Of a DNA stretch of 35,810 nucleotides, positions 15,237 through 32,073 are shown piece after piece. The number at the start of each line of letters is the position of its first letter. Positions within the stretch are counted from its first letter, which is position 1. The notes below the pieces were generated by a model, which saw only the letters and a list, made by a program, of their open reading frames with translations, was not told where the DNA came from and ran no database searches. The translations under genes were made by a program, and so were the position numbers. Origin of the DNA: a virus; IMG/VR virus record IMGVR_UViG_3300046467_001379, positions 1 to 35,810 of that record; one strand, written 5' to 3'.

Positions 15237-16727
15237 ATGTTTGGCATAAAACCCAAAAAGCAAAAGGTTGACCAAAAGACGCTTTATGTCGCTTTTGATA
15301 CTGCGCTTGAAAGCAGCGACGCTGTCAGTGCCGACGTGCTACTACAAGAGACCGGCAAGACCCGCCAAGAGCTGCTCGATGCGGTCATGGCAGACGATGA
15401 GGTTATCAGCTGCCGCGAGGATATCGAAGGCGCTATCAGTGCTGCTGCGTGGCGAATTTGGGGCGAAGACGTCAATGAAGATGTGGTCAATCGGCTTTAT
15501 CGCATCATACGCCGCTTGCATAATGACTTTGCCGCGCTTGCTATCCTTGCCAAGTTTAACGGTTATGCCGTCGCTGAATACGTGTTTAAAAAAGAGCCTG
15601 ACGGATTTTTGACACTACACAGTTTATTGTCCAAAGACGGTGAGCTGGATAACTACACGCCCATGCGTGATGGCTCGATGCAGCTCAAAACCGAAGAAGA
15701 TAGCATTGAGATCAATCAAATTATCAAGTACCTGGTGCTGACCAGCAAGGCCGTTCCCGCGCGCCCTGCTGGTGAGTTGATGATTGTCCGTGCCTATCCT
15801 GCCGTGGCGCTGCGTCGCCGTGAATGGGCGTATGCTGGGCAGTTTATCGCTCGCTACTCTCAGCCGTATGTCGTCGGCACACAAGGCGCTGATGGCGTCT
15901 TTGGCACAACGCTGGGTGACTTTACCAGTAAGATATTTAGTTTTATCAATGGTGGCGCTGCCGGTATCGGTAAAGACGACAAGATCGAGATGCACCAGCT
16001 GTCAGGTGACGGCTCAGCGTTTGAATTATTTGAGCGCCTTGCCAATAGACGTATCCAAAAGCTGCTATTAGGCCGCGTCAAGACCAGCGAGCTATCAGCA
16101 GGCAGTCGAGCGGCTCAAGAGACCGATGACGAGGCACGCCAAGACCGAGTGATGTCATATCTTGGGCTGATGACCCGTGGTATACAGCACGCCATCGATG
16201 CCATTATCGCGGTCAATCAAGCGTGGGGTCTACCGATTAATGCCCCGCAAGGCATTTGGTTTGAATATCCTATCGTCAAAAAATTCAGCAAAGATGAGGC
16301 AGAGATTGACGCGAAATACGTCAGCACGGGTCAAGTAAGGCTGACTAAACAGCGACTACTCAATGTCGGCTACGAAGAGTCTGAGTTTGAGATTATCGAT
16401 AATGTGGTACCAGTTCCGACGCCCGTACCGACGACACAGCAAATCCTTGACCAGCTCTCACTGCAATATAAGCTCTCTCAGAATCTACCGACGATCATCA
16501 CTGACCCTGCGACTGCCGACGATATCGAGCAAGAGCGCGGCTTGATGAAGTCCAAAGTTGAAGCGTTGCTATCATTGGTCAATGACTGCAAAGATTACAG
16601 CGAGTTTGAGCGCAAGCTGTCTGCTCTGCAACTGCCTGACGACGGCGTGGTAGCTGACTTAGCTGATTTGCTGACTGCAACGTTTGTCGATGCGCTCATC
16701 GATGATAAGGATAACAAAAATGCCTGA
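15237..16727 (+). CDS. Portal protein (DUF935, Mu gp29-like)
   Basis: This 496-residue protein has the DUF935 portal pattern: helical LQETGKTRQELLDAVMADDEVISC, WRIWGEDV, FNGYAVAEYVFK, then RREWAYAGQFIARYSQPYVVG over residues about 195-215 and TDDEARQDRVMSYLGLMTRGIQ later. It forms the dodecameric ring through which DNA enters and to which the tail attaches. ATG 15237 follows AAGGA. The 3' end overlaps the gpF-like gene by eight bases. Confidence 0.92.
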   Translation: MFGIKPKKQKVDQKTLYVAFDTALESSDAVSADVLLQETGKTRQELLDAVMADDEVISCREDIEGAISAAAWRIWGEDVNEDVVNRLYRIIRRLHNDFAALAILAKFNGYAVAEYVFKKEPDGFLTLHSLLSKDGELDNYTPMRDGSMQLKTEEDSIEINQIIKYLVLTSKAVPARPAGELMIVRAYPAVALRRREWAYAGQFIARYSQPYVVGTQGADGVFGTTLGDFTSKIFSFINGGAAGIGKDDKIEMHQLSGDGSAFELFERLANRRIQKLLLGRVKTSELSAGSRAAQETDDEARQDRVMSYLGLMTRGIQHAIDAIIAVNQAWGLPINAPQGIWFEYPIVKKFSKDEAEIDAKYVSTGQVRLTKQRLLNVGYEESEFEIIDNVVPVPTPVPTTQQILDQLSLQYKLSQNLPTIITDPATADDIEQERGLMKSKVEALLSLVNDCKDYSEFERKLSALQLPDDGVVADLADLLTATFVDALIDDKDNKNA

Positions 16728-17595
16728 TGCTTATACTGATGCCAACTTTGATATCTTGCCAAACTTAGAGGCAATCAAAGCCTTTAACACTAAGATGATC
16801 GGCTCAAGCTTTAGCTATCTGGATGTGCTCGCTCATGAGCACGCTGTCGCCTTTACCGTCGCAAAGATGATGGACATGGATATGCTGTCTGAAACCAAAG
16901 ACGCTATCAGCGCGGCACTAGAAAATGGCACAGACTTTCGTGACTTTCAAAAACGCCTAAAACCTTACATGATGAGTAAAGGCTGGTGGGGCGAGCAAGT
17001 CATGAGTGACCCTATCGATGGCTCTATCCAAAAAGTACAGCTGGGCAGTACGCGCAGACTGCGCACGATATATCAGACCAATCTGCATACGGCATACGCG
17101 GCTGGGCAATGGGAACGTATCCAGCAGTCCAAAGACGCACTGCCATACTTGCAATATATGCCGTCACTAGCGACTCGTAAGCGCGACGATCACAAGCAGT
17201 ACTACGGCATCATCAGACCTATCGACGACCCAATCTGGCAGCAGATACTACCGCCAAACGGATATGGCTGTCTGTGCTGGGTCAAGCAGCTGACACGCAA
17301 ACAAGCGGAACGCGCTGGCGGTGTGACCGAAGATAAAGACGTCGAATATGAGGAAGTCGAAAACCCACGCACTGGTAAAAAGGAGCAAGTACCGACTGGC
17401 ATCAGCTTAAGCTTTGCGAGTAATCACGCCAATCGGCTTGGCTCGCTACTGAATATCGCTGAAGAGAAGCACGGACGCGACTTTAGACAGCAGCTCATAC
17501 CACAGCTCGCGGATTATATGCAGCGTCTGCTAGAAGCTGGACTGGTCGATATGATAAAAGATGATCCGAGGTTTGCAGCGTTGTTGCCAGAGTAA
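16720..17595 (+). CDS. F: Head morphogenesis protein, Mu gpF-like (minor head protein)
   Basis: This 291-residue protein carries the Phage_Mu_F signature: RTIYQTNLHTAYAAGQWERI, LPYLQYMPSLATRKRDDHKQ (residues about 145-165), and the conserved PPNGYGCLCWVKQLTRKQ with its cysteine pair. Such minor head proteins assist prohead assembly and may be ejected with DNA. ATG 16720 lies inside the portal end, following AAGG. It is shorter than Mu gpF (427) and lacks the long N-terminal part, as seen in many D3112-like relatives. Confidence 0.9.
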   Translation: MPDAYTDANFDILPNLEAIKAFNTKMIGSSFSYLDVLAHEHAVAFTVAKMMDMDMLSETKDAISAALENGTDFRDFQKRLKPYMMSKGWWGEQVMSDPIDGSIQKVQLGSTRRLRTIYQTNLHTAYAAGQWERIQQSKDALPYLQYMPSLATRKRDDHKQYYGIIRPIDDPIWQQILPPNGYGCLCWVKQLTRKQAERAGGVTEDKDVEYEEVENPRTGKKEQVPTGISLSFASNHANRLGSLLNIAEEKHGRDFRQQLIPQLADYMQRLLEAGLVDMIKDDPRFAALLPE

Positions 17596-17642
17596 TGCAG
17601 ATGGTTTATATTGGACTGAATGATATGAGCTAAGAGGTGGTG

Positions 17643-17828
17643 ATGAGTAATTTCGTATTCTACGGTCAAGGCATGGAGGCTGATGAAACTAACGACATAA
17701 AAGTCGCCCTTGATGGTGATTACATAGAGTTGCAGGATGATGGTTGTATATACGCACTAATACCGATAGAGAAATGGCAGAAGCTAAGAAGTGATATTGA
17801 TGAGCGATTAGCGAAAGGGCTGCGTTAA
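17643..17828 (+). CDS. Small acidic protein in the gpF-protease interval (candidate anti-defence cargo)
   Basis: This 61-residue acidic protein (13 Asp/Glu against 7 Lys/Arg) is not recognised. ATG 17643 follows AAGAGG six bases upstream. It lies between the minor head gene and the protease/scaffold block, alone, and is followed by a terminator. In D3112-like Pseudomonas phages, anti-CRISPR genes occupy a comparable slot among head genes. No HTH aca-type gene adjoins it, so the link rests on position, size and acidity only. The sequence IPIEKWQKLRSDIDERLA forms a predicted helix. Confidence 0.65.
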   Translation: MSNFVFYGQGMEADETNDIKVALDGDYIELQDDGCIYALIPIEKWQKLRSDIDERLAKGLR

Positions 17829-17883
17829 AAAACATCGAACATATACCTCATAACTCCAGATTAAAGCCCAAACCTATCAAAAT

Positions 17884-17910
17884 AGCCCGCTCATCGCAGT
17901 GGGCTTTTTT
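17884..17910 (+). terminator. Intrinsic terminator ending late block 1
   Basis: AGCCCGCT (17884-17891) pairs with AGTGGGCT (17898-17905) around CATCGC and leads into a run of six T. It stops transcripts from P1 after the small acidic ORF and before promoter P2. Confidence 0.85.
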
Positions 17911-17952
17911 ATGCCTGTCGTTTATGCGCCTGTGTCTATAACTTAGATAGCG

Positions 17953-17970
17953 TTTAACACCCGTTTAACG
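17953..17970 (+). repeat. Dispersed intergenic motif, copy 1
   Basis: TTTAACACCCGTTTAACG here matches TTTAACACCCATTTAACG at 19651-19668 at 17 of 18 positions. Related TTTAACG/CGTTTAA words also lie in other intergenic gaps. Purpose unknown. Confidence 0.5.
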
Positions 17971-18071
17971 TCTCGACTACGCGCTTTTAACATCGCCATC
18001 ACGTCATTACAGCAAATATTAAGCAAAACGGCTTAAATCGCAAATAACAGCCGTTTGTATTTTATGCCTAA

Positions 18072-18119
18072 CTACCTGAACCGCATCATCTAACCATATT
18101 TAATGCCGCTCATCATAAT
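18072..18119 (+). promoter_or_regulatory. Late promoter P2 with 24-bp shared activator element
   Basis: The 24-bp element at 18072-18095 is identical to those of P1 and P3, and CATAAT (18114-18119) lies exactly 18 bases after its end. P1 and P2 also share TATT just downstream of the element and a G after the -10. No -35 box is present. It would transcribe the protease/scaffold, capsid, Acb2-like, connector and tail-tube genes. Confidence 0.8.
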
Positions 18120-18182
18120 GAGACTTTATCGACACTCTTTATTTTACGTTGTCGCGATTTTACTCATTAGCTGGACGTCATT

Positions 18183-19169
18183 ATGCCAAAAGACCACAAA
18201 AAGCCAAATATCTATCTGCTCTCTGAAGTCAATGTCGCTGATGCCCCTGCTGATGCGGATAAGTCGTTGCCGCGCAAGTTCAGTGGTGTCGCCAACTCTG
18301 GCAAGCCATTTAATCACTATGGCGAGATGGTCGTCGTTGACTTAACGGACATCCAATACAAGTCAAACGTCCCTGCGCTATTGCTGCATGACCGTGCCCA
18401 ACGTGCCGGATTTGGTACGCTCAGCGTCACAAATAATCAATTGCTCATCGATGGCACGTTGCTAGATAACCAGTTCGGCCGCGATGTCGCTGACGATTCG
18501 GATGCTGGATTCCCTTGGCAGATGTCTATTCATGTTAACGCTAATAGCATGACAGAGCTTGGGCAGAATGAAAAAGCAACCGTCAACGGTAGCGAGGTCA
18601 CTGGCCCACTCGTTATCCTCAAAAATTGCAGCGTCTCCGAGGTATCGTTTACCCCTACTGGTGTAGATGACGAAACCTCTGCCATCGCTCTAGCAGATAG
18701 CGGAATACCTAACTCATCAACTCCTCAACCCAATACGCAAAAGGACACCACCATGACTCCTGAAGAAATCGCAGCACTACAAAAGCTTGCCGCTGACCAA
18801 GCTGAAGAGATTAAGACTCTTAAAGAAGAAAAAGCCGAGCTTGAGAAAGAAAAAGCCGAAGCAGAAGCCGAAGCAAAAGCCGCTGCTATCGATGCGCAAT
18901 TATCACAAGCAGGCTTTACCAAAACTGAAGACGGCAAAGCATGGAACGGTGTCGGTACAGCGACGGTCAATATGCTGCTGTCTGCCAGTCCTGAAGATGC
19001 CAAAGCAATGATCGGTGATCTGCGTGCGCCAAATACGCAAGACAATGTGCCTGAGTATCTACTAGGTGAGCAGCACAAGCCCAGTAACGGTCAAGAGCGT
19101 CAGCTGTCTAGCAATCCGATGTTAGCCAATGCTGAAGCACGCGCCGCCGAGGCAAAAAACTATATCTAA
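18183..19169 (+). CDS. I: Phage protease with fused scaffold (Mu gpI-like)
   Basis: This 328-residue protein has an N-terminal prohead-protease part (residues about 20-165): VPALLLHDRAQRAGFG supplies the histidine region, PWQMSIHV a possible serine, and CSVSEVSFTPTGVD the closing strand motif. A linker leads to a C-terminal scaffold (residues about 191-328) with a long charged helix (EEIKTLKEEKAELEKEKAEA and repeats of Ala/Glu/Lys). It shapes the prohead and then digests the scaffold. An internal start at 18753 probably makes free scaffold. First gene after P2. Confidence 0.85.
   Translation: MPKDHKKPNIYLLSEVNVADAPADADKSLPRKFSGVANSGKPFNHYGEMVVVDLTDIQYKSNVPALLLHDRAQRAGFGTLSVTNNQLLIDGTLLDNQFGRDVADDSDAGFPWQMSIHVNANSMTELGQNEKATVNGSEVTGPLVILKNCSVSEVSFTPTGVDDETSAIALADSGIPNSSTPQPNTQKDTTMTPEEIAALQKLAADQAEEIKTLKEEKAELEKEKAEAEAEAKAAAIDAQLSQAGFTKTEDGKAWNGVGTATVNMLLSASPEDAKAMIGDLRAPNTQDNVPEYLLGEQHKPSNGQERQLSSNPMLANAEARAAEAKNYI
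18753..19169 (+). CDS. Z: Nested in-frame scaffold protein (Mu gpZ-like internal start)
   Basis: Inside the protease gene, AAGGA stands eight bases before ATG 18753, in the same frame, exactly where the scaffold domain begins. This would yield a 138-residue protein (MTPEEIAALQKLAADQAEE onward) identical to the protease C-terminus. Mu I/Z and lambda C/Nu3 use the same arrangement. Position and ribosome site are seen; expression is inferred. Confidence 0.55.
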   Translation: MTPEEIAALQKLAADQAEEIKTLKEEKAELEKEKAEAEAEAKAAAIDAQLSQAGFTKTEDGKAWNGVGTATVNMLLSASPEDAKAMIGDLRAPNTQDNVPEYLLGEQHKPSNGQERQLSSNPMLANAEARAAEAKNYI

Positions 19170-19182
19170 TTAACGCATGGCA

Positions 19183-19208
19183 GGCGCTGGCAAACGTCCA
19201 GCGTCTTT
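19183..19208 (+). terminator. Weak hairpin after the protease gene
   Basis: GGCGCTGG (19183-19190) pairs with CCAGCGTC (19198-19205) and is followed by only three T. It is more likely an attenuator or mRNA-protecting hairpin than a full terminator. Confidence 0.35.
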
Positions 19209-19242
19209 GATGGCTTAAACGATTAATCACTTAAACAACAAA

Positions 19243-19270
19243 TTTATCGAACCCTATTTATCGAACCCTA
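19243..19270 (+). repeat. Perfect 14-bp tandem duplication before the decoration gene
   Basis: TTTATCGAACCCTA occurs twice in direct succession (19243-19256, 19257-19270). The second copy runs into the AGGAG ribosome site of the next gene. It looks like a recent slippage duplication in the leader. Confidence 0.7.
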
Positions 19271-19280
19271 GGAGCACCCC

Positions 19281-19622
19281 ATGCCCAATGAACATTACGT
19301 CACGATTGGCGATATCTTAAAGTCCGAAGCGGATCGCAGCAATCGCATCGCTATCCCTGCCGCTGTCGGCACCAAGACTGGTGCGCTGGTCAAATATACC
19401 GAGCGCAACGAATATCTATTTGCGTTGACTGACGAAACCAACGGCGAAGTACTGGTACAACCGCATAACTGCACCGTGTTTTTGGGCAGTATTCCACAAG
19501 CCAATATCGACACGACGTTTACCGACGAAGAAGGTCTAGTGCCACTGACAGTCGCGACGCTAAAAACCCAAGGTGACTTGTACGGCATCAAGTATGTCGG
19601 CACGCCAATGGCTACTGTTTAA
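19281..19622 (+). CDS. Putative head decoration protein
   Basis: This 113-residue, strand-rich protein (GALVKYTERNEYLFALTDE, GEVLVQPHNCTVFLG) lies between the protease/scaffold and the gpE-type capsid gene, the place where lambda-like phages encode gpD. Good AGGAG ribosome site nine bases before the ATG. Family assignment is by position, size and general character; I do not see a decisive motif. Confidence 0.5.
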   Translation: MPNEHYVTIGDILKSEADRSNRIAIPAAVGTKTGALVKYTERNEYLFALTDETNGEVLVQPHNCTVFLGSIPQANIDTTFTDEEGLVPLTVATLKTQGDLYGIKYVGTPMATV

Positions 19623-19650
19623 AAGCCTTTTAACGCAATACTAAAACTGA

Positions 19651-19668
19651 TTTAACACCCATTTAACG
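19651..19668 (+). repeat. Dispersed intergenic motif, copy 2
   Basis: TTTAACACCCATTTAACG lies just ahead of the capsid gene's ribosome site and matches the copy at 17953-17970 with one difference. Confidence 0.5.
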
Positions 19669-19691
19669 CAAGTCTAAACCTAGGAATGATT

Positions 19692-20681
19692 ATGCCTTTA
19701 TCCAATGAAAGTCAGTATGGCGTCGTGCCAATGACCGAGGCAATTAACAAGTTGCCTGCCAATCCCACTATTATTCGCGAGCTTGGACTGTTCAAGCCGC
19801 AGTACGAAACCACAACCTCTGTCGCTGTCGAAGTGAAAAACGGCGTATTAACGCTAGTCAAAGCAGTGCCTCGCGGTACGCCTGGTGAGCCTGTAAAAAC
19901 CAACCTTGGCAATCGTCAAAGCTTTGAGATGTTGCATCTGCCTAAGGATGATGTCGTCCGAGCTGATGATGTGCAAAACGTGCGCACCTTTGGCGGTGGC
20001 AACAAAGCGCAAACAGTCGCTGAAAAGGTCAACGACAAGCTTGCTGATATGAAGTCCGATATCGAATACACCCGTGAGCATTTAATGCTTGGTGCGTTAT
20101 CAGGCAAGATTTTGAACGCTGACGGCGACCCTATTATCGATATCTATGAGCGCTTTGGGTTAACTCGCCAATCCATTAACTGGAACTTATCGGCTACCAA
20201 TGGCAATGTTGGATCGATGATTGATAGCGCCGTGCGTAACTTAAGCAAAAAGCGTGGCGGTGAGCCAGTCAATGGCTGGATCGTGCTGTGCTCTCCAACG
20301 TTTATGGATGCGGTTATTTACCATAAGACCGTTACCGCTATCTATGAGCGTTACCAAGAAGGCTCTGCCTATCGTAGCGGCGATACGAGCGTCGGCTTTG
20401 AACATAAAAAATTGAAGTTTATTAACTACGATCATGTGTTTGAGTCTGGTCTACAAATCACAGAAGGCGAAGCGATTATTTTGCCAGCTGGTACTAAGAA
20501 CACGTTTAAAGAGTTCTTTGCCCCTGCGGATAAATCGTCCACGGTCAACACCAAGGCATTAGCGTACTACGCGAGCCGTGAGCCATTGGGTCATGACAAA
20601 GGCTGGAGTCTTGAGGCGCAATCTAACCCATTGCCATTGTTGCTACGTCCTGAGCTGGTCGCTACGCTAAAAATGACCTAA
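19692..20681 (+). CDS. Major capsid protein, lambda gpE family
   Basis: This protein of about 329 residues fits the Phage_cap_E family: MTEAINKLPANPTIIRELGLF at the start, the VAVEVKNGVLTLVKAVPRG strand region, LPKDDVVRADDVQNVRTFG, and the C-terminal EPLGHDKGWSLEAQSNPLPLL with RPELVATLKM. It builds the icosahedral shell. ATG 19692 is preferred over 19686 because AGGA lies six bases upstream. Mu itself uses gpT, a different capsid family, so the head genes here combine Mu-type assembly factors with a lambda-type shell. Confidence 0.92.
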   Translation: MPLSNESQYGVVPMTEAINKLPANPTIIRELGLFKPQYETTTSVAVEVKNGVLTLVKAVPRGTPGEPVKTNLGNRQSFEMLHLPKDDVVRADDVQNVRTFGGGNKAQTVAEKVNDKLADMKSDIEYTREHLMLGALSGKILNADGDPIIDIYERFGLTRQSINWNLSATNGNVGSMIDSAVRNLSKKRGGEPVNGWIVLCSPTFMDAVIYHKTVTAIYERYQEGSAYRSGDTSVGFEHKKLKFINYDHVFESGLQITEGEAIILPAGTKNTFKEFFAPADKSSTVNTKALAYYASREPLGHDKGWSLEAQSNPLPLLLRPELVATLKMT

Positions 20682-20697
20682 TCACTTAGCTTAAACC

Positions 20698-20722
20698 CCT
20701 TGGCTGGCAGTGCTGGTCAAGG
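20698..20722 (+). terminator. Imperfect hairpin after the capsid gene
   Basis: CCTTGGCTGGC and GCTGGTCAAGG can pair around AGT with several G-U pairs; only a short ATGTTTTA follows. It is at most a weak terminator or an mRNA-stabilising structure behind the highly expressed capsid gene. Confidence 0.3.
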
Positions 20723-20757
20723 ATGTTTTACCCAAATAATTACACAAGGTAAAGACC

Positions 20758-20982
20758 ATGAGTGATGATAAACCAAAAGTTAAAGGCTATCGCCAGCTGA
20801 CAGACGCTGAGATTGATGCCATTAATAAAATTAAAGCAAAAGCTGAAGAAGTTGGCAACTTGGTTGAGCAGCTACAGATGTCTGGCGGCTTAGACCAACG
20901 CGCCATTAATATCGGCAAAACTGAGCTACAAACTGGCTTTATGTGGCTAACACGCGGTATTGCCCAGCCTGACAGTTTTTAG
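20758..20982 (+). CDS. acb2: Acb2/Tad1-like cyclic-nucleotide sponge (anti-CBASS / anti-Thoeris)
   Basis: This 74-residue protein has the compact family pattern: KGYRQLTDAEIDAINKIKAK, a middle helix AEEVGNLVEQLQ, and the C-terminal DQRAINIGKTELQTGFMWLTR followed by GIAQPDSF. Acb2 proteins of phages form hexamers that soak up cyclic di- and trinucleotides and so block CBASS; Tad1 relatives bind the Thoeris signal. The gene lies between capsid and connector genes in the late block, with AAGG upstream of the ATG. Recognition is by sequence pattern from memory, without a search. Confidence 0.75.
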   Translation: MSDDKPKVKGYRQLTDAEIDAINKIKAKAEEVGNLVEQLQMSGGLDQRAINIGKTELQTGFMWLTRGIAQPDSF

Positions 20983-20990
20983 GACTGACC

Positions 20991-21422
20991 ATGATTACAT
21001 CACAAGATCTAATCGACCGCTTTGGTGAGACCGAAATAGCAAAGCTGACAGACAGAGTGAGTTATCAAGTGATTGATGCAGCTGTCGCGGCAACCGCTAT
21101 CAAAGACGCGGAAGGCGAAGTCGCAGGGTATCTGCGTGCTGCTGGCTTAGTCAGCAAAGACGCTTTGGGTAATGTCGTTTATCGTAATGGCGCTGATCTA
21201 CCCTCTGATTTAGCACTGCATACGTGCAATATTGCTCGCTACAACCTGTACGACAATGGCGTCACTGAAACGGTCGAAAAGCGCTATGACGATGCGATCA
21301 AGTGGCTCGATAAGGTCAAAAAAGACCCGACGATGCTCACTGGGCCTATCGCTGAGCAGCCAACGGCGAGCGGTGGTATCAGCGTCATACCAAATCCGGT
21401 ACCGAATATTTACCAGGACTGA
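20991..21422 (+). CDS. Head-tail connector, DUF1320 (Mu gp36-like)
   Basis: This 143-residue protein shows the gp36 pattern: MITSQDLIDRFGETEIAKLT at the start, a central helical DAEGEVAGYLRAAGL, and LHTCNIARYNLYD followed by VEKRYDDAIKWLDKV. It is the Mu-type adaptor that joins portal to tail. It begins eight bases after the Acb2-like gene and ends two bases before the next. Confidence 0.9.
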   Translation: MITSQDLIDRFGETEIAKLTDRVSYQVIDAAVAATAIKDAEGEVAGYLRAAGLVSKDALGNVVYRNGADLPSDLALHTCNIARYNLYDNGVTETVEKRYDDAIKWLDKVKKDPTMLTGPIAEQPTASGGISVIPNPVPNIYQD

Positions 21423-21424
21423 TT

Positions 21425-21874
21425 ATGCAAATCAATGTCGATAGTCAATTGCCAGAGCTGCGTGACAAGGTTGGCGAGATTTATCTCAAGCTGAATGGCG
21501 ACTTAACACCGCTTATGCGTGGCGTCGCTGCCGTCATTGAAAACAGCAGCCGTGACAGATTCCGCACCAAGACCGCGCCTGACGGCAGTACATGGGCAGA
21601 CCTCAAGCCATCTACTCTCAAAGCTAAAAAAGGTCGCGGTAGTAAGATGGTTGAATATGGCGACTTGATGCGCTCTATCACTAGCTACGCCAATAGCACG
21701 TCGGCAGTAGTCGGTACAGATAGACCGTACGCCAAATATCACCAAACTGGCACGAAGAATAGCGACGGCTCTGAACGTATGGAAGCCCGTCCGATATTTG
21801 GCATATCAGTCGATGACCGTACCGACGTGCTGGACTTAATGAACGACTTTATGGCAGGAGTAGTCAATGGCTAA
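21425..21874 (+). CDS. G: Virion morphogenesis protein (Mu gpG / P2 gpS family)
   Basis: This 149-residue protein has the family hallmarks: RFRTKTAPDGSTWADLKPST, YGDLMRSITSYANSTSAVVGT and YAKYHQTGTK, then PIFGISVDD. It acts at the head-tail junction or tail completion stage. It overlaps the gp37-like gene by eight bases. Confidence 0.9.
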   Translation: MQINVDSQLPELRDKVGEIYLKLNGDLTPLMRGVAAVIENSSRDRFRTKTAPDGSTWADLKPSTLKAKKGRGSKMVEYGDLMRSITSYANSTSAVVGTDRPYAKYHQTGTKNSDGSERMEARPIFGISVDDRTDVLDLMNDFMAGVVNG

Positions 21875-22340
21875 TGTACCGGCATGGAACGACAACGCCT
21901 TGGCGTGCTATCCATATGTGCTTGAGCGTTTACGGGAAGTATCGCAAGTTAAACGTGTGCTAGAAGCTGCTGACTTTGCAGCCATTAGCGGTGCTCAGCG
22001 TAAGCAAGTCCCGCTCGATGGTGCGGTCTATCTCATCTTGGACGGTTATACGCCAACCGCCAGCAATGGCAAAGGACGTGAGCAGCTGATTGAGATTGGC
22101 TTTAGTGTGATATTGACCAAGCAGCAATTTACGCCAAACCCTGCGTCGGATGATGTCGGCAAGACGCTGACCGCGCTATCAAAAGCGCTACAAGGTTTTG
22201 ATCCAAGCGATGCGCAAGGCCGTGCGTTGGTGACTGATCCATTCGAGTCGCGTCCACCACTGCCGATCCAATACGAAGATGGCTTTGCTTTTTTCCCGCT
22301 GCGCTTCACTGCTGAAGTGGCCATTTTATCAGACAACTAA
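21867..22340 (+). CDS. Tail terminator-like protein (DUF1834, Mu gp37 type)
   Basis: This 157-residue protein begins inside the gpG-like gene. It has a helical start (YVLERLREVSQVKRVLEA), a strand region with DGAVYLILDGYTP and EIGFSVILTK, and a C-terminal YEDGFAFFPLRFTAEVAI. Order and fold pattern fit Mu gp37, a likely tail terminator that caps the tube. Assignment is supported mainly by position between gpG and tail tube. Confidence 0.7.
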   Translation: MANVPAWNDNALACYPYVLERLREVSQVKRVLEAADFAAISGAQRKQVPLDGAVYLILDGYTPTASNGKGREQLIEIGFSVILTKQQFTPNPASDDVGKTLTALSKALQGFDPSDAQGRALVTDPFESRPPLPIQYEDGFAFFPLRFTAEVAILSDN

Positions 22341-28464: not shown

Positions 28465-31400
28465 ATGGCAACTCCAGAAACCAAAATAGTACGCAGCGAC
28501 TTACAGTTTTTCCCATCCGAACGTCTGACAGACAATGACGATGGTGGCGGGATGCCGCTTGGCACACCCATCAGTGGCGAAGCCAACGAGCTGTTTAATC
28601 CGATATCATCTATCGCTAGGGTTAACGGTGGGTTTTATGCGCGGCTGATGTACGCAGGCGTACAGCGTGTCGATGATGAGCCGTTGATCGGTGCGTTTGC
28701 GGCGATTACTAAGCCACCCTCTGATCCTACTGTCAGCTATTTGATGTTTCCAGCGACTAAATTTGGCGAATTGCGCGAAGAGATTTTAGACCGTATCGAG
28801 GCGTATAACGTCGGCACGATACAGTCACGCATGACGCTACTGTCAACACAATCAAAAAACAGCCGCATTGTACAAGCGTATCAAAATGTCGGTGAGCCAT
28901 TGCCACTAATCGGTGACGTGTACTGTCTGACGCAAGATAAAGCGGGCTATCCGCAAGTTGAGCAGTATATTCAAGTCACCAATCTTGATAGTGAAGACCG
29001 AGAATTTACGGACGCAAACGGCAAAAAGTTTACTAAGACCGTGCTTAAAATCTCAACGTCAGGACGACTGAAAGCCGACTTTGTGGGCGTGGAATACCCG
29101 ATAGAAGGTTATGCTGATGCTCCTTGCAAGCTACGTGAGACGGGCATAGCGGATGCCGCGCAATATTACGGCGTTAAACCACTCGCCGCGCCCATTGTCA
29201 AAGATGAGCCGTTTTTAAAAATCCCGTCACTCATGGACAAGGTAGTGCCGACCAACCAAATCGAGCAGCGTTTGCGTGATTTGACCGCCGCAGGCCAACG
29301 GCAAACGCTATTTGATAGCGCACGTCCAGGCGCTGACGGTATCGTGTCACTAGGTATCAATAAGACGCATAACGCAGGGACTATCAGCAATATATATCTG
29401 GGTAATGCTGCAACACCGGGTAGTGTAACGCTCGACACAGCGGCGGGCGTAGCGACTGATAAGGGCGGCGTCATCAGCGTTGGCAGCAAGACGATCGGTT
29501 CAATTAATTACGGGCGCGGTGTGATGCTCATTAGTGAGCCGACGTTTAGTGCTCGCTTGAACAGCGTATCGTTTAGACCGTCGCTATCTGAGCAGCGCGT
29601 GTCTGATACCGACAGCATACCGGTTGCTATTAACAATCGTGGCTACACTTACGGCATCAATATCGATCCGCCACCCGCGCCGGGCAGCTTGCAAGCTAGC
29701 TATATGGCGCAGGGTAATTGGTATGACTTGCGCGATGACGGCACGGGTAATCTACGCGGCAGCAGTGAAGCGCACGGCGGCGGCACGGTCAGCTATATCA
29801 CGGGCAGCGCAGATATCGACTGCGGTGAGATGCCGGATGTCGGCAGCGCCATTATCTTTAGCTGGAGTACCCGCGCGCGCTATTACAATCGCGCAGGCGG
29901 TGTGGCAGATGCCAAGATGCTACTACAATTAGCGGATGATATTGATCCGTCATCATTGACACTCACTTGGAATGACGGCGCAGCAAAGACAGCTACCTCA
30001 GATGCCGCAGGCAATATAACAGGCGACTGGACGGGTAAGCTTGACGTACAGACCAATCAAATCCGCATCGATACAGGTGCTAATTTTAATCATCCGGCGG
30101 GTGTGTTGGATGTGGCCGCAAGCTACAGCAAGGGCGAGAAAAAAGCCAAAGAGTTTATCGCGCCGCTACGTGATGAGCTTGGCAAGATTAATCTAGATTT
30201 GGGCGACACACCAATTAAGCCAAACACCTTTAGACTGCGCTATAACCTATTGATTGTAGAGTTTGACGAGATATCCAGTATTGTGAACTTAGTTGATCCT
30301 TACAAAGTAATGCGCGATGACGGCGTGGGCAATCTGTTAGATGAAACTGGCGTCAACATGGGTACGATTGATTATGTGACCCGCAAAGTGCAATTCAACC
30401 CAGAAACGACGGTAAGTATTCCACGCCCAACATATAACTTTGTCAGCACAACTCAAGGCATTACAATAACCACCCGTCAATACTTTACCGGCTTTACTTA
30501 TCAGTCAGTCGGCGCTTTTATGCCCTATGACGAGTCAGGGAAAGTGGAAACGTGGTTTTATGATACTTCACCCACTAGCACAGTCACTGAGGCGCTGACA
30601 TCTGGCGATATTGAGATTGACTTGCTACCGCAGTTTGCTGAAGTCATCGCACCGTCCAGCCTATCTGTGGCATGGGGCGGCAGTCGCTACTTTGATCGTG
30701 CTGGCACAGTCTATACCAATCTTGATCCAAACACTGGCAGCGCAGACGTGGCGGGTACGATTGATTACAGTACAGGACGACTGACACTCACACGCTGGGA
30801 TTGGACGTCTGGTGCCGCGCCTAACATTATCTCGCTAGCCAGTAGCATCGACGGTAATCCCGTGGACGCGGTGACATTCCGCACCCCTAGCGCACCGCTA
30901 CAGCCGGGCAGTCTCAACGTCCGCGCTACGGGTATTGATGGCTCTAAGGTTAATATCACCGCTGACTTTGGCGGCGTTATGAAGTCAGCGCGTGTCGATG
31001 GTACGGTCGATGCCGAGTTTGGCGTGGCTCGCCTAAGGTTTGGCAAAATGGTCGCCGCCGCCGGTAACGAAGAAGAGCCGTGGTATAGCGTCGATGCGGT
31101 AGTCGACGGTCAGATATGGCAGCCGCTACACGTCTTTGCCGAGACTATTACGTATAACGCAACATCGTATAGCTATCTACCCATCGACTCTAATGTCGTC
31201 AAAATCGACACCGTACGACTACCACAAGACGGGCGCATCCCTATATTCCGTCGCGGCGACACCATCATCATTGGTAATCGCGTCACGACTGACATTGGCT
31301 CGGCGCACACAGGCGGTCAAACGGTCACGCTACCACGCGATGATGTCACACGTATCGCTGTCATGGACGCGGACGATAAGCAAGTCAATGCTGCGCTGTG

Positions 31401-32073
31401 GGATTACGACCTAGCTGCCGGCACAGTGACGTGGAAAACACCCCTTGATTTGTCGATGTATCAAATGCCGCTTAAGGTCATGCACGCGCAAGAGGAACGC
31501 AACCGTATCATCCAAGCCGACATCGATGGCACATTGACGCTACTGTTTGCGATCAAGCGCGATTATCCCATCGAAAATACCTACGTTTCCAGCGTATTGA
31601 TTGGCGGTGATCTGCAAGTGCGCGTCTCGATACCCTTTACCCAGCGCAATTGGAATAACAGATGGTCAGATGAGCCAGTGGGCGATCAGCTACTCAATAA
31701 GCTCAATCTTAAAGACTACCCGATGATTTTGACCGATGACGGCGCTATTAAAGAGCGCTGGATGATTGAGATGACGGGCACTGGTAACTTTGAGCTGTAC
31801 GGTGAGACACTAGGTTTTGTCATGCGCGACGATACCTTGACTGACCTAGCACCGATTAATCCTGCCACTGGCAAGCCTTACTTTACGCTACCTAAAGAGG
31901 CCTTTGGTGCTAATGCGCCGTGGGCAAGTCAAGATATTATCCGCTTTAATACATGGGGCACGTTGCTACCCATTTGGGTGCTGTGCGCTGTGCAACCCAA
32001 CCCAAACCCGCCGACGGGCACTGATGGCTATACGCAGTGCTTGTATGGTGATACTACCGAATTAACAGTTTAG
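28465..32073 (+). CDS. Large tail-tip structural protein with repeated beta modules
   Basis: This 1202-residue protein is not assigned to a named family, though proteins of this size occupy the same place in D3112/B3-type phages. The first 280 residues form a compact domain (FFPSERLTDNDDGGGMPLGT, YLMFPATKFGELREEILDRI). The rest repeats a short beta motif of the type GT(I/V)DYxTG: residues about 345, 440, 633, 764, 846 and 986. The C-terminal 200 residues (RDYPIENTYVSSVLIGGDLQ, RWMIEMTGTGNFELYG) form another domain. It is probably part of the baseplate or central tip. AAGGA precedes the ATG by nine bases or so. Confidence 0.8.
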   Translation: MATPETKIVRSDLQFFPSERLTDNDDGGGMPLGTPISGEANELFNPISSIARVNGGFYARLMYAGVQRVDDEPLIGAFAAITKPPSDPTVSYLMFPATKFGELREEILDRIEAYNVGTIQSRMTLLSTQSKNSRIVQAYQNVGEPLPLIGDVYCLTQDKAGYPQVEQYIQVTNLDSEDREFTDANGKKFTKTVLKISTSGRLKADFVGVEYPIEGYADAPCKLRETGIADAAQYYGVKPLAAPIVKDEPFLKIPSLMDKVVPTNQIEQRLRDLTAAGQRQTLFDSARPGADGIVSLGINKTHNAGTISNIYLGNAATPGSVTLDTAAGVATDKGGVISVGSKTIGSINYGRGVMLISEPTFSARLNSVSFRPSLSEQRVSDTDSIPVAINNRGYTYGINIDPPPAPGSLQASYMAQGNWYDLRDDGTGNLRGSSEAHGGGTVSYITGSADIDCGEMPDVGSAIIFSWSTRARYYNRAGGVADAKMLLQLADDIDPSSLTLTWNDGAAKTATSDAAGNITGDWTGKLDVQTNQIRIDTGANFNHPAGVLDVAASYSKGEKKAKEFIAPLRDELGKINLDLGDTPIKPNTFRLRYNLLIVEFDEISSIVNLVDPYKVMRDDGVGNLLDETGVNMGTIDYVTRKVQFNPETTVSIPRPTYNFVSTTQGITITTRQYFTGFTYQSVGAFMPYDESGKVETWFYDTSPTSTVTEALTSGDIEIDLLPQFAEVIAPSSLSVAWGGSRYFDRAGTVYTNLDPNTGSADVAGTIDYSTGRLTLTRWDWTSGAAPNIISLASSIDGNPVDAVTFRTPSAPLQPGSLNVRATGIDGSKVNITADFGGVMKSARVDGTVDAEFGVARLRFGKMVAAAGNEEEPWYSVDAVVDGQIWQPLHVFAETITYNATSYSYLPIDSNVVKIDTVRLPQDGRIPIFRRGDTIIIGNRVTTDIGSAHTGGQTVTLPRDDVTRIAVMDADDKQVNAALWDYDLAAGTVTWKTPLDLSMYQMPLKVMHAQEERNRIIQADIDGTLTLLFAIKRDYPIENTYVSSVLIGGDLQVRVSIPFTQRNWNNRWSDEPVGDQLLNKLNLKDYPMILTDDGAIKERWMIEMTGTGNFELYGETLGFVMRDDTLTDLAPINPATGKPYFTLPKEAFGANAPWASQDIIRFNTWGTLLPIWVLCAVQPNPNPPTGTDGYTQCLYGDTTELTV

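Follow-up and report, generated by a model that had tools for sequence, protein, structure and literature searches.

Proteins of the Acb2 family soak up the bacterial alarm molecules that call for cell suicide, and the Acb2 hexamer has three dinucleotide and two trinucleotide sites. Three described members are of particular use for comparison here, namely p26/Acb2 of the PaMx33/41/43 type (PDB 8h2j, 8ixz; 93 aa), Acb2 of the Pseudomonas phage JBD67, a Beetrevirus (gp34, 108 aa), and Vs.4 of phage T4 (PDB 7uq2). In T4 Vs.4, cGAMP stacks on Y8 and F82 and receives hydrogen bonds and salt bridges from Y8, H11, K23 and R79, while formation of the hexamer requires L29, A66, A73 and A77 (PMC10097602). 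In the case of JBD67, an acb2 deletion mutant has been studied against CBASS, as cited in PMC13083879. The sponge Tad1 has the helical hairpin in common with Acb2 in the name of their Pfam family, but in Tad1 two helices come after a beta-sheet at the N-terminus, whereas Acb2 consists of helices only, and the binding of gcADPR has been assigned to Tad1 and Tad2, not to Acb2 (PMC12043709).

The window analyzed here is the whole of contig IMGVR_UViG_3300046467_001379 (35,810 nucleotides), a Mu-like phage of Psychrobacter that also encodes a Mu-type transposase, a B protein and a CI-like repressor. Within its late genes there is a small open reading frame which is a new, short Acb2 of a Psychrobacter transposable phage and belongs to the known family. 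We consider it very probable (about 0.9), from sequence and modeling, that its product would be a hexameric cyclic-nucleotide sponge directed against CBASS and made together with the capsid. The features of the region are the following:

15237..16727, forward strand: Mu-type portal gene of the late block (PF06074, E 5.4e-33)
19281..19622, forward strand: small gene upstream of the capsid gene, by its position a probable head decoration protein
19686..20681, forward strand: major capsid protein (Phage_cap_E, PF03864, E 3.8e-81)
20698..20722, forward strand: hairpin between the capsid gene and acb2 (11 pairs, loop of 3, then TGTTTTAC)
about 20720..21020, no strand: tract (acb2 and the start of gp36) that, from the identity profile, was probably exchanged between phages
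20758..20982, forward strand: acb2, predicted 74-aa cyclic-oligonucleotide sponge of the Acb2 family (PF24729, PDB relatives, AlphaFold2, Foldseek)
20991..21422, forward strand: Mu gp36-type head-tail connector gene (PF07030, Phage_Mu_Gp36, E 1.4e-24)
21425..21874, forward strand: phage virion morphogenesis gene (Phage_tail_S, PF05069, E 1.1e-24)
21867..22340, forward strand: tail terminator gene (PF23840, E 5.5e-21)

Family membership, fold and pocket of the 74-residue product

The gene starts with ATG, preceded by a ribosome binding site-like AAGG (20746-20749), and its translated product (MSDDKPKVKGYRQLTDAEIDAINKIKAKAEEVGNLVEQLQMSGGLDQRAINIGKTELQTGFMWLTRGIAQPDSF) matches the Pfam family PF24729 (Acb2_Tad1_hairpin) along the complete profile (1-58 of 58) with 63.8 bits (E 1.7e-17), the cut-off being 27 bits. 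JBD67 Acb2 belongs to the same family (E 3.4e-16). A single-sequence phmmer search of the PDB retrieved p26/Acb2 (8h2j, 8ixz) at E 8.5e-11 and T4 Vs.4 at 0.0066; when a ten-sequence profile was used, p26 was matched over its full length at 4.5e-27 and Vs.4 at 8.6e-6, and no Tad1 chain was matched. Relatives appeared in 527 phage records. The score against the family cut-off, the match to p26 and the number of phage records place the resemblance to Acb2 far from chance. The only other profiles matched were phrog_717 and phrog_29522, both labeled 'unknown function', and no structural family of the head or connector was among the matches. In public records, Acb2 of Beetrevirus bears the label 'NAD/FAD-utilizing enzyme' (L157 2495-2782, L158 2495-2821), and the record of one P. 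aeruginosa phage places an 'Rz-like spanin' over acb2, on the opposite strand (L159 2480-3175).

The AlphaFold2 monomer, modeled from 49 sequences (pLDDT 90.1), has helices at residues 16-41 and 47-69 and no strand, that is, the short N-terminal segment and two long antiparallel helices of an Acb2 protomer. Foldseek ranked Acb2 and Vs.4 chains exclusively in places 1-9, and VIA-align gave a Z of 8.4 against Acb2 and the same value against Vs.4. The fold by itself is not decisive, as helical hairpins reach middling scores and Z values of this size by arrangement alone; it is the agreement of the predicted fold with the sequence match that we take as decisive for the Acb2 family. The antiparallel beta-sheet that precedes the hairpin in Tad1 was not found in the model and there is no sequence left to form it, so that the protein, as modeled, is of the Acb2 type rather than a Tad1. 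A sequence-only reading of the window had proposed an Acb2/Tad1-like gene from the features YRQLT..INKIK, IGKTELQTGFM and a closing PDSF. All of these are present in the product, and the proposal was borne out by the family profile and the solved relatives, by the helical hairpin obtained from the structure prediction and by the residues of the pocket.

In the profile alignment, Vs.4 Y8, K23 and R79 correspond to Y11, K26 and R66, which preserve the core cyclic-dinucleotide contacts (an N-terminal Tyr and Lys and an Arg of helix 2). These three are invariant in the 49 homologues, as are E18, R48, T55, G60, M62, A69, P71 and F74, and are nearly so in 62 family representatives under 85% identity. 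The other Vs.4 contacts, H11 and F82, are replaced by L14 and A69, and p26 likewise has L and A at these places. Besides Y11, K26 and R66, p26 shares R48 (p26 R67) and the IAQPDSF end with the 74-aa protein; Vs.4 is only 23-27% identical and the position of R48 is absent from it. The closing PDSF is not universal in the family, as JBD67 Acb2 ends in IAQPEGC, with GC in place of SF. The main difference in size lies in the hairpin. The 74-aa protein is some 19 residues shorter than p26, all of them missing from the hairpin turn, and the hairpin of JBD67 Acb2 is about 34 residues longer.

A second peculiarity concerns a tryptophan that alternates between two places. Among the 62 representatives, 51 have W49 without W63 and nine W63 without W49, while none has both; the two with neither are one cut short and one of doubtful reading. 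The swap requires at least four changes on the tree (with rows L020-L023 left out). Position 49 carries the tryptophan in p26 and in JBD67 Acb2 (W/A at residues 49/63), whereas the 74-aa protein (A/W) and T4 Vs.4 have it at 63. Since residues 49 and 63 lie about four helical turns apart within one chain, our guess is that they mark a place where neighboring protomers of the hexamer touch.

These two peculiarities bear on the alternative that fares best, according to which the gene is an acb2 by descent but the allele, with its short hairpin and its tryptophan moved from 49 to 63, is inactive or has an altered ligand range. In this allele group the W49 next to R48 has indeed become A49, with W at 63 instead, and the ligand spectrum is known to differ between homologues (PMC12043709). 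On the other hand, the A49/W63 state arose several times and is also that of T4 Vs.4, which is active with W63 and no tryptophan at 49, so the change looks tolerated, and no other length is as common among the retrieved relatives as 74 aa. We therefore regard an inactive or altered allele as unlikely and retain the CBASS sponge as the preferred reading.

The late head block and the exchange of acb2 alleles

The forward block runs from the portal gene through a Mu F-like gene (PF04233), a protease (assigned by position), the small gene (19281..19622, for which no Pfam or PHROG match was found) and the capsid gene to acb2, and continues with Mu gp36, Phage_tail_S and the tail terminator, all tightly packed. 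The location between the capsid and connector genes that had been read from the sequence was thus correct, both flanks having clear family matches (PF03864 and PF07030, E values above). The ribosome binding site of gp36 (AGGA, 20981-20984) overlaps the stop codon of acb2 (TAGGA, 20980-20984), which means that acb2 is an integral part of the operon rather than just a neighbor of it. The region 15237-22340 combines Mu-type portal, F and gp36 genes with a capsid gene of the lambda E type, and an ORF of 1403 aa after the tail genes resembles a tape measure protein; on these grounds the phage looks like a Mu-like siphovirus. Further downstream, a protein of 1202 aa (28465-32073) matches phrog_6128 (unknown function) almost from end to end (1044 bits) and is, by position, probably a tail-tip protein.

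Between the capsid gene and acb2, the stem columns of the hairpin at 20698-20722 are fully paired in all six aligned sequences, and it is followed by a weak T run. No two-sided compensatory change was detected among these six sequences, and terminator-like or promoter-like sites were no more frequent in this region than in shuffles. It is possible that the hairpin acts as an attenuator or forms an mRNA 3' end, in which case it could lower the transcription of acb2 relative to that of the capsid gene.

JBD67, which like this phage is a Mu-like transposable phage, has the order major head protein gp32, gp33, gp34 (Acb2) and gp35, a head-tail adaptor (Phage_Mu_Gp36). Here too acb2 follows the major head gene and directly precedes the gp36-type gene, the difference being the extra gene (gp33) that separates it from the capsid gene. 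The same place directly before gp36 is found in the Beetrevirus phages SS2019XII and BR141c and in the Leptolyngbya phage Lsp-JY19. Some other phages have acb2 at a different place within the head or tail block, and in still others it stands among replication or early genes, for instance in Ac42, MQM1 and PaMx43, where the p26 gene is the last of the replication operon. A search of phage records for gp36 found nothing, and a tally of the PHROGs that neighbor 78 genes from IMG/VR loci gave a diffuse picture. The late head slot is therefore recurrent and, because acb2 already stands upstream of gp36 in the P. aeruginosa phage JBD67, where others have tested it, not new. It is consistent with production of the sponge alongside the capsid. 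Capsid mutants that escape CBASS (PMC10419184) suggest a possible link of the late slot to the capsid as a trigger of this defense.

All eight other contigs that carry this capsid gene have acb2 in the same slot. As these contigs were found by searching with the capsid and not with acb2, the gene is a stable component of this phage lineage. One copy (G093) belongs to a decayed prophage in which the frames of both capsid and acb2 are broken. The alleles themselves tell a different story from their neighbors. A prophage carried by Psychrobacter aquimaris DSM 16329 (L012) has an Acb2 96% identical to that of the window (93% for the copy in a Psychrobacter MAG). Along the alignment of this prophage and the window, nucleotide identity is 83-98% within the tract and about 55-75% on both sides of it; by gene, it is 92% for acb2 but 71% for the capsid gene, 66% for gp36 and 60% for Phage_tail_S. 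The converse is seen in a pair of relatives, L013 and L007, with identities of 91% (capsid), 93% (gp36) and 97% (Phage_tail_S) and only 73% in acb2. The tree of the neighboring genes pairs L013 and L007 with full support, the acb2 data reject this pairing (AU p 0.0007), and the neighboring genes in turn reject the grouping given by acb2 (p 1.4e-5). The acb2-only tree does not reject the four-phage group of the neighbors (p 0.20 and 0.36), and the case for exchange is made by the L013/L007 pair (p 0.0007) together with the identity profile. Between the window and L012, most changes inside the tract are silent (12 synonymous against three amino-acid differences). Since the neighbors are far more divergent, the identity is best explained by exchange, not constraint, with acb2 alleles apparently swapped as a cassette of about 300 bp independently of their neighbors.

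That the slot between capsid and gp36 accepts inserts is shown by another relative (L004 5738-6000), which has gained a small additional ORF (MEPIKCKTGKLKPLKHNGIKSEAIGILAVTILAITVVAINSK), hydrophobic over part of its length, downstream of the hairpin and ahead of acb2.

The conservation of the slot could also be read as that of a small protein of the virion or of head assembly which has reused the Acb2 hairpin fold structurally, given that acb2 sits in the head operon, is kept like a core head gene by all eight contigs with this capsid gene, and that the corresponding place in Mu is taken by gp35, whose function is unknown. We find this very improbable. The protein matched no head family, its relatives are found equally among replication and early genes (PaMx43, Ac42 and MQM1), the invariant residues are those that contact the nucleotide, and the allele has been exchanged independently of capsid and connector, unlike a part that needs to fit them. 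A sponge remains the preferred reading, and for it a more specific proposal can be made, although one we hold doubtful. There are two types of allele, A49/W63 with GKT and W49 with GAT, and the capsid-gp36 slot might be an exchange site at which they are swapped to match the CBASS nucleotides of the hosts, the shifted tryptophan marking a change in hexamer packing or ligand preference. What a specialist might not expect is that alleles are exchanged in a late slot which itself stays fixed, and that the tryptophan alternates.

Host CBASS and the proposed role of the sponge

In the P. aquimaris genome (G001; L038 6770-10653), PADLOC identified consecutive genes for an oligonucleotide cyclase, E1-E2, JAB and NucC, an operon of four genes that, judged by its gene content, is a complete type II-like CBASS (cyclase-Cap2-Cap3-NucC) with NucC as its effector. 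The CBASS operon and the prophage with the close relative of this acb2 are thus found in one genome, that of strain DSM 16329. NucC is activated by cA3, and Acb2 has been reported to sequester cA3 (PMC12043709). NucC of this type occurs in six Psychrobacter genomes (E below 1e-90). Among the 105 Psychrobacter genomes, a SMODS-type match was found in 16 and an Acb2-type gene in six. Co-enrichment of acb2 and the CBASS cyclase was not detected across the genus, one of the six acb2 genomes having the cyclase against 16/105 overall, and for this reason NucC-type CBASS is a plausible target of Acb2 in Psychrobacter and not a statistical association. Another genome of the genus (G074; L142) has a strong match to mCpol (E 5.6e-28, about 150 aa), which suggests a Panoptes-like system that would make Acb2 a liability; systems of the Panoptes type penalize a phage for carrying an Acb protein (PMC12657230).

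Under the sponge reading, the product would most likely assemble into the known hexamer of the family and would bind tightly, without cutting them, the cyclic di- and trinucleotides made by CBASS enzymes during infection, cA3 being probably the relevant ligand. The CBASS effector, which may be a phospholipase or a nuclease such as NucC, would then stay off and the cell would survive long enough for phage release. Being one of the genes translated in the late head block, acb2 should yield its protein at the same time as the capsid, when the phage grows lytically or a prophage is induced, and not while a lysogen is quiet. Action of Acb2 on prophage induction and not in lysogeny has been described (PMC12043709).

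The sequence-only reading had also suggested activity against Thoeris. A Tad1-type sponge that would sequester gcADPR and block Thoeris as well seems hardly credible, for even if both hairpins go under one Pfam family name (PF24729) and a ThsB-like TIR gene is present in 13 of the 105 Psychrobacter genomes, the 74-aa protein is a bare helical hairpin lacking the N-terminal beta-sheet domain that Tad1 itself carries, the profile search of the PDB gave no Tad1 chain, and gcADPR binding is a property of Tad1 and Tad2 (PMC12043709). A role in Thoeris is thus not indicated.

With these results, a group of transposable phages from the environment gains a well-supported member of the Acb2 family. The exchange of the acb2 cassette within an otherwise vertically inherited head block is a genetic sign of selection on the allele, and the alternating tryptophan provides a concrete pair of residues that may bear on ligand range or hexamer packing. 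A natural strain, P. aquimaris DSM 16329, makes the arms race testable in a single organism.
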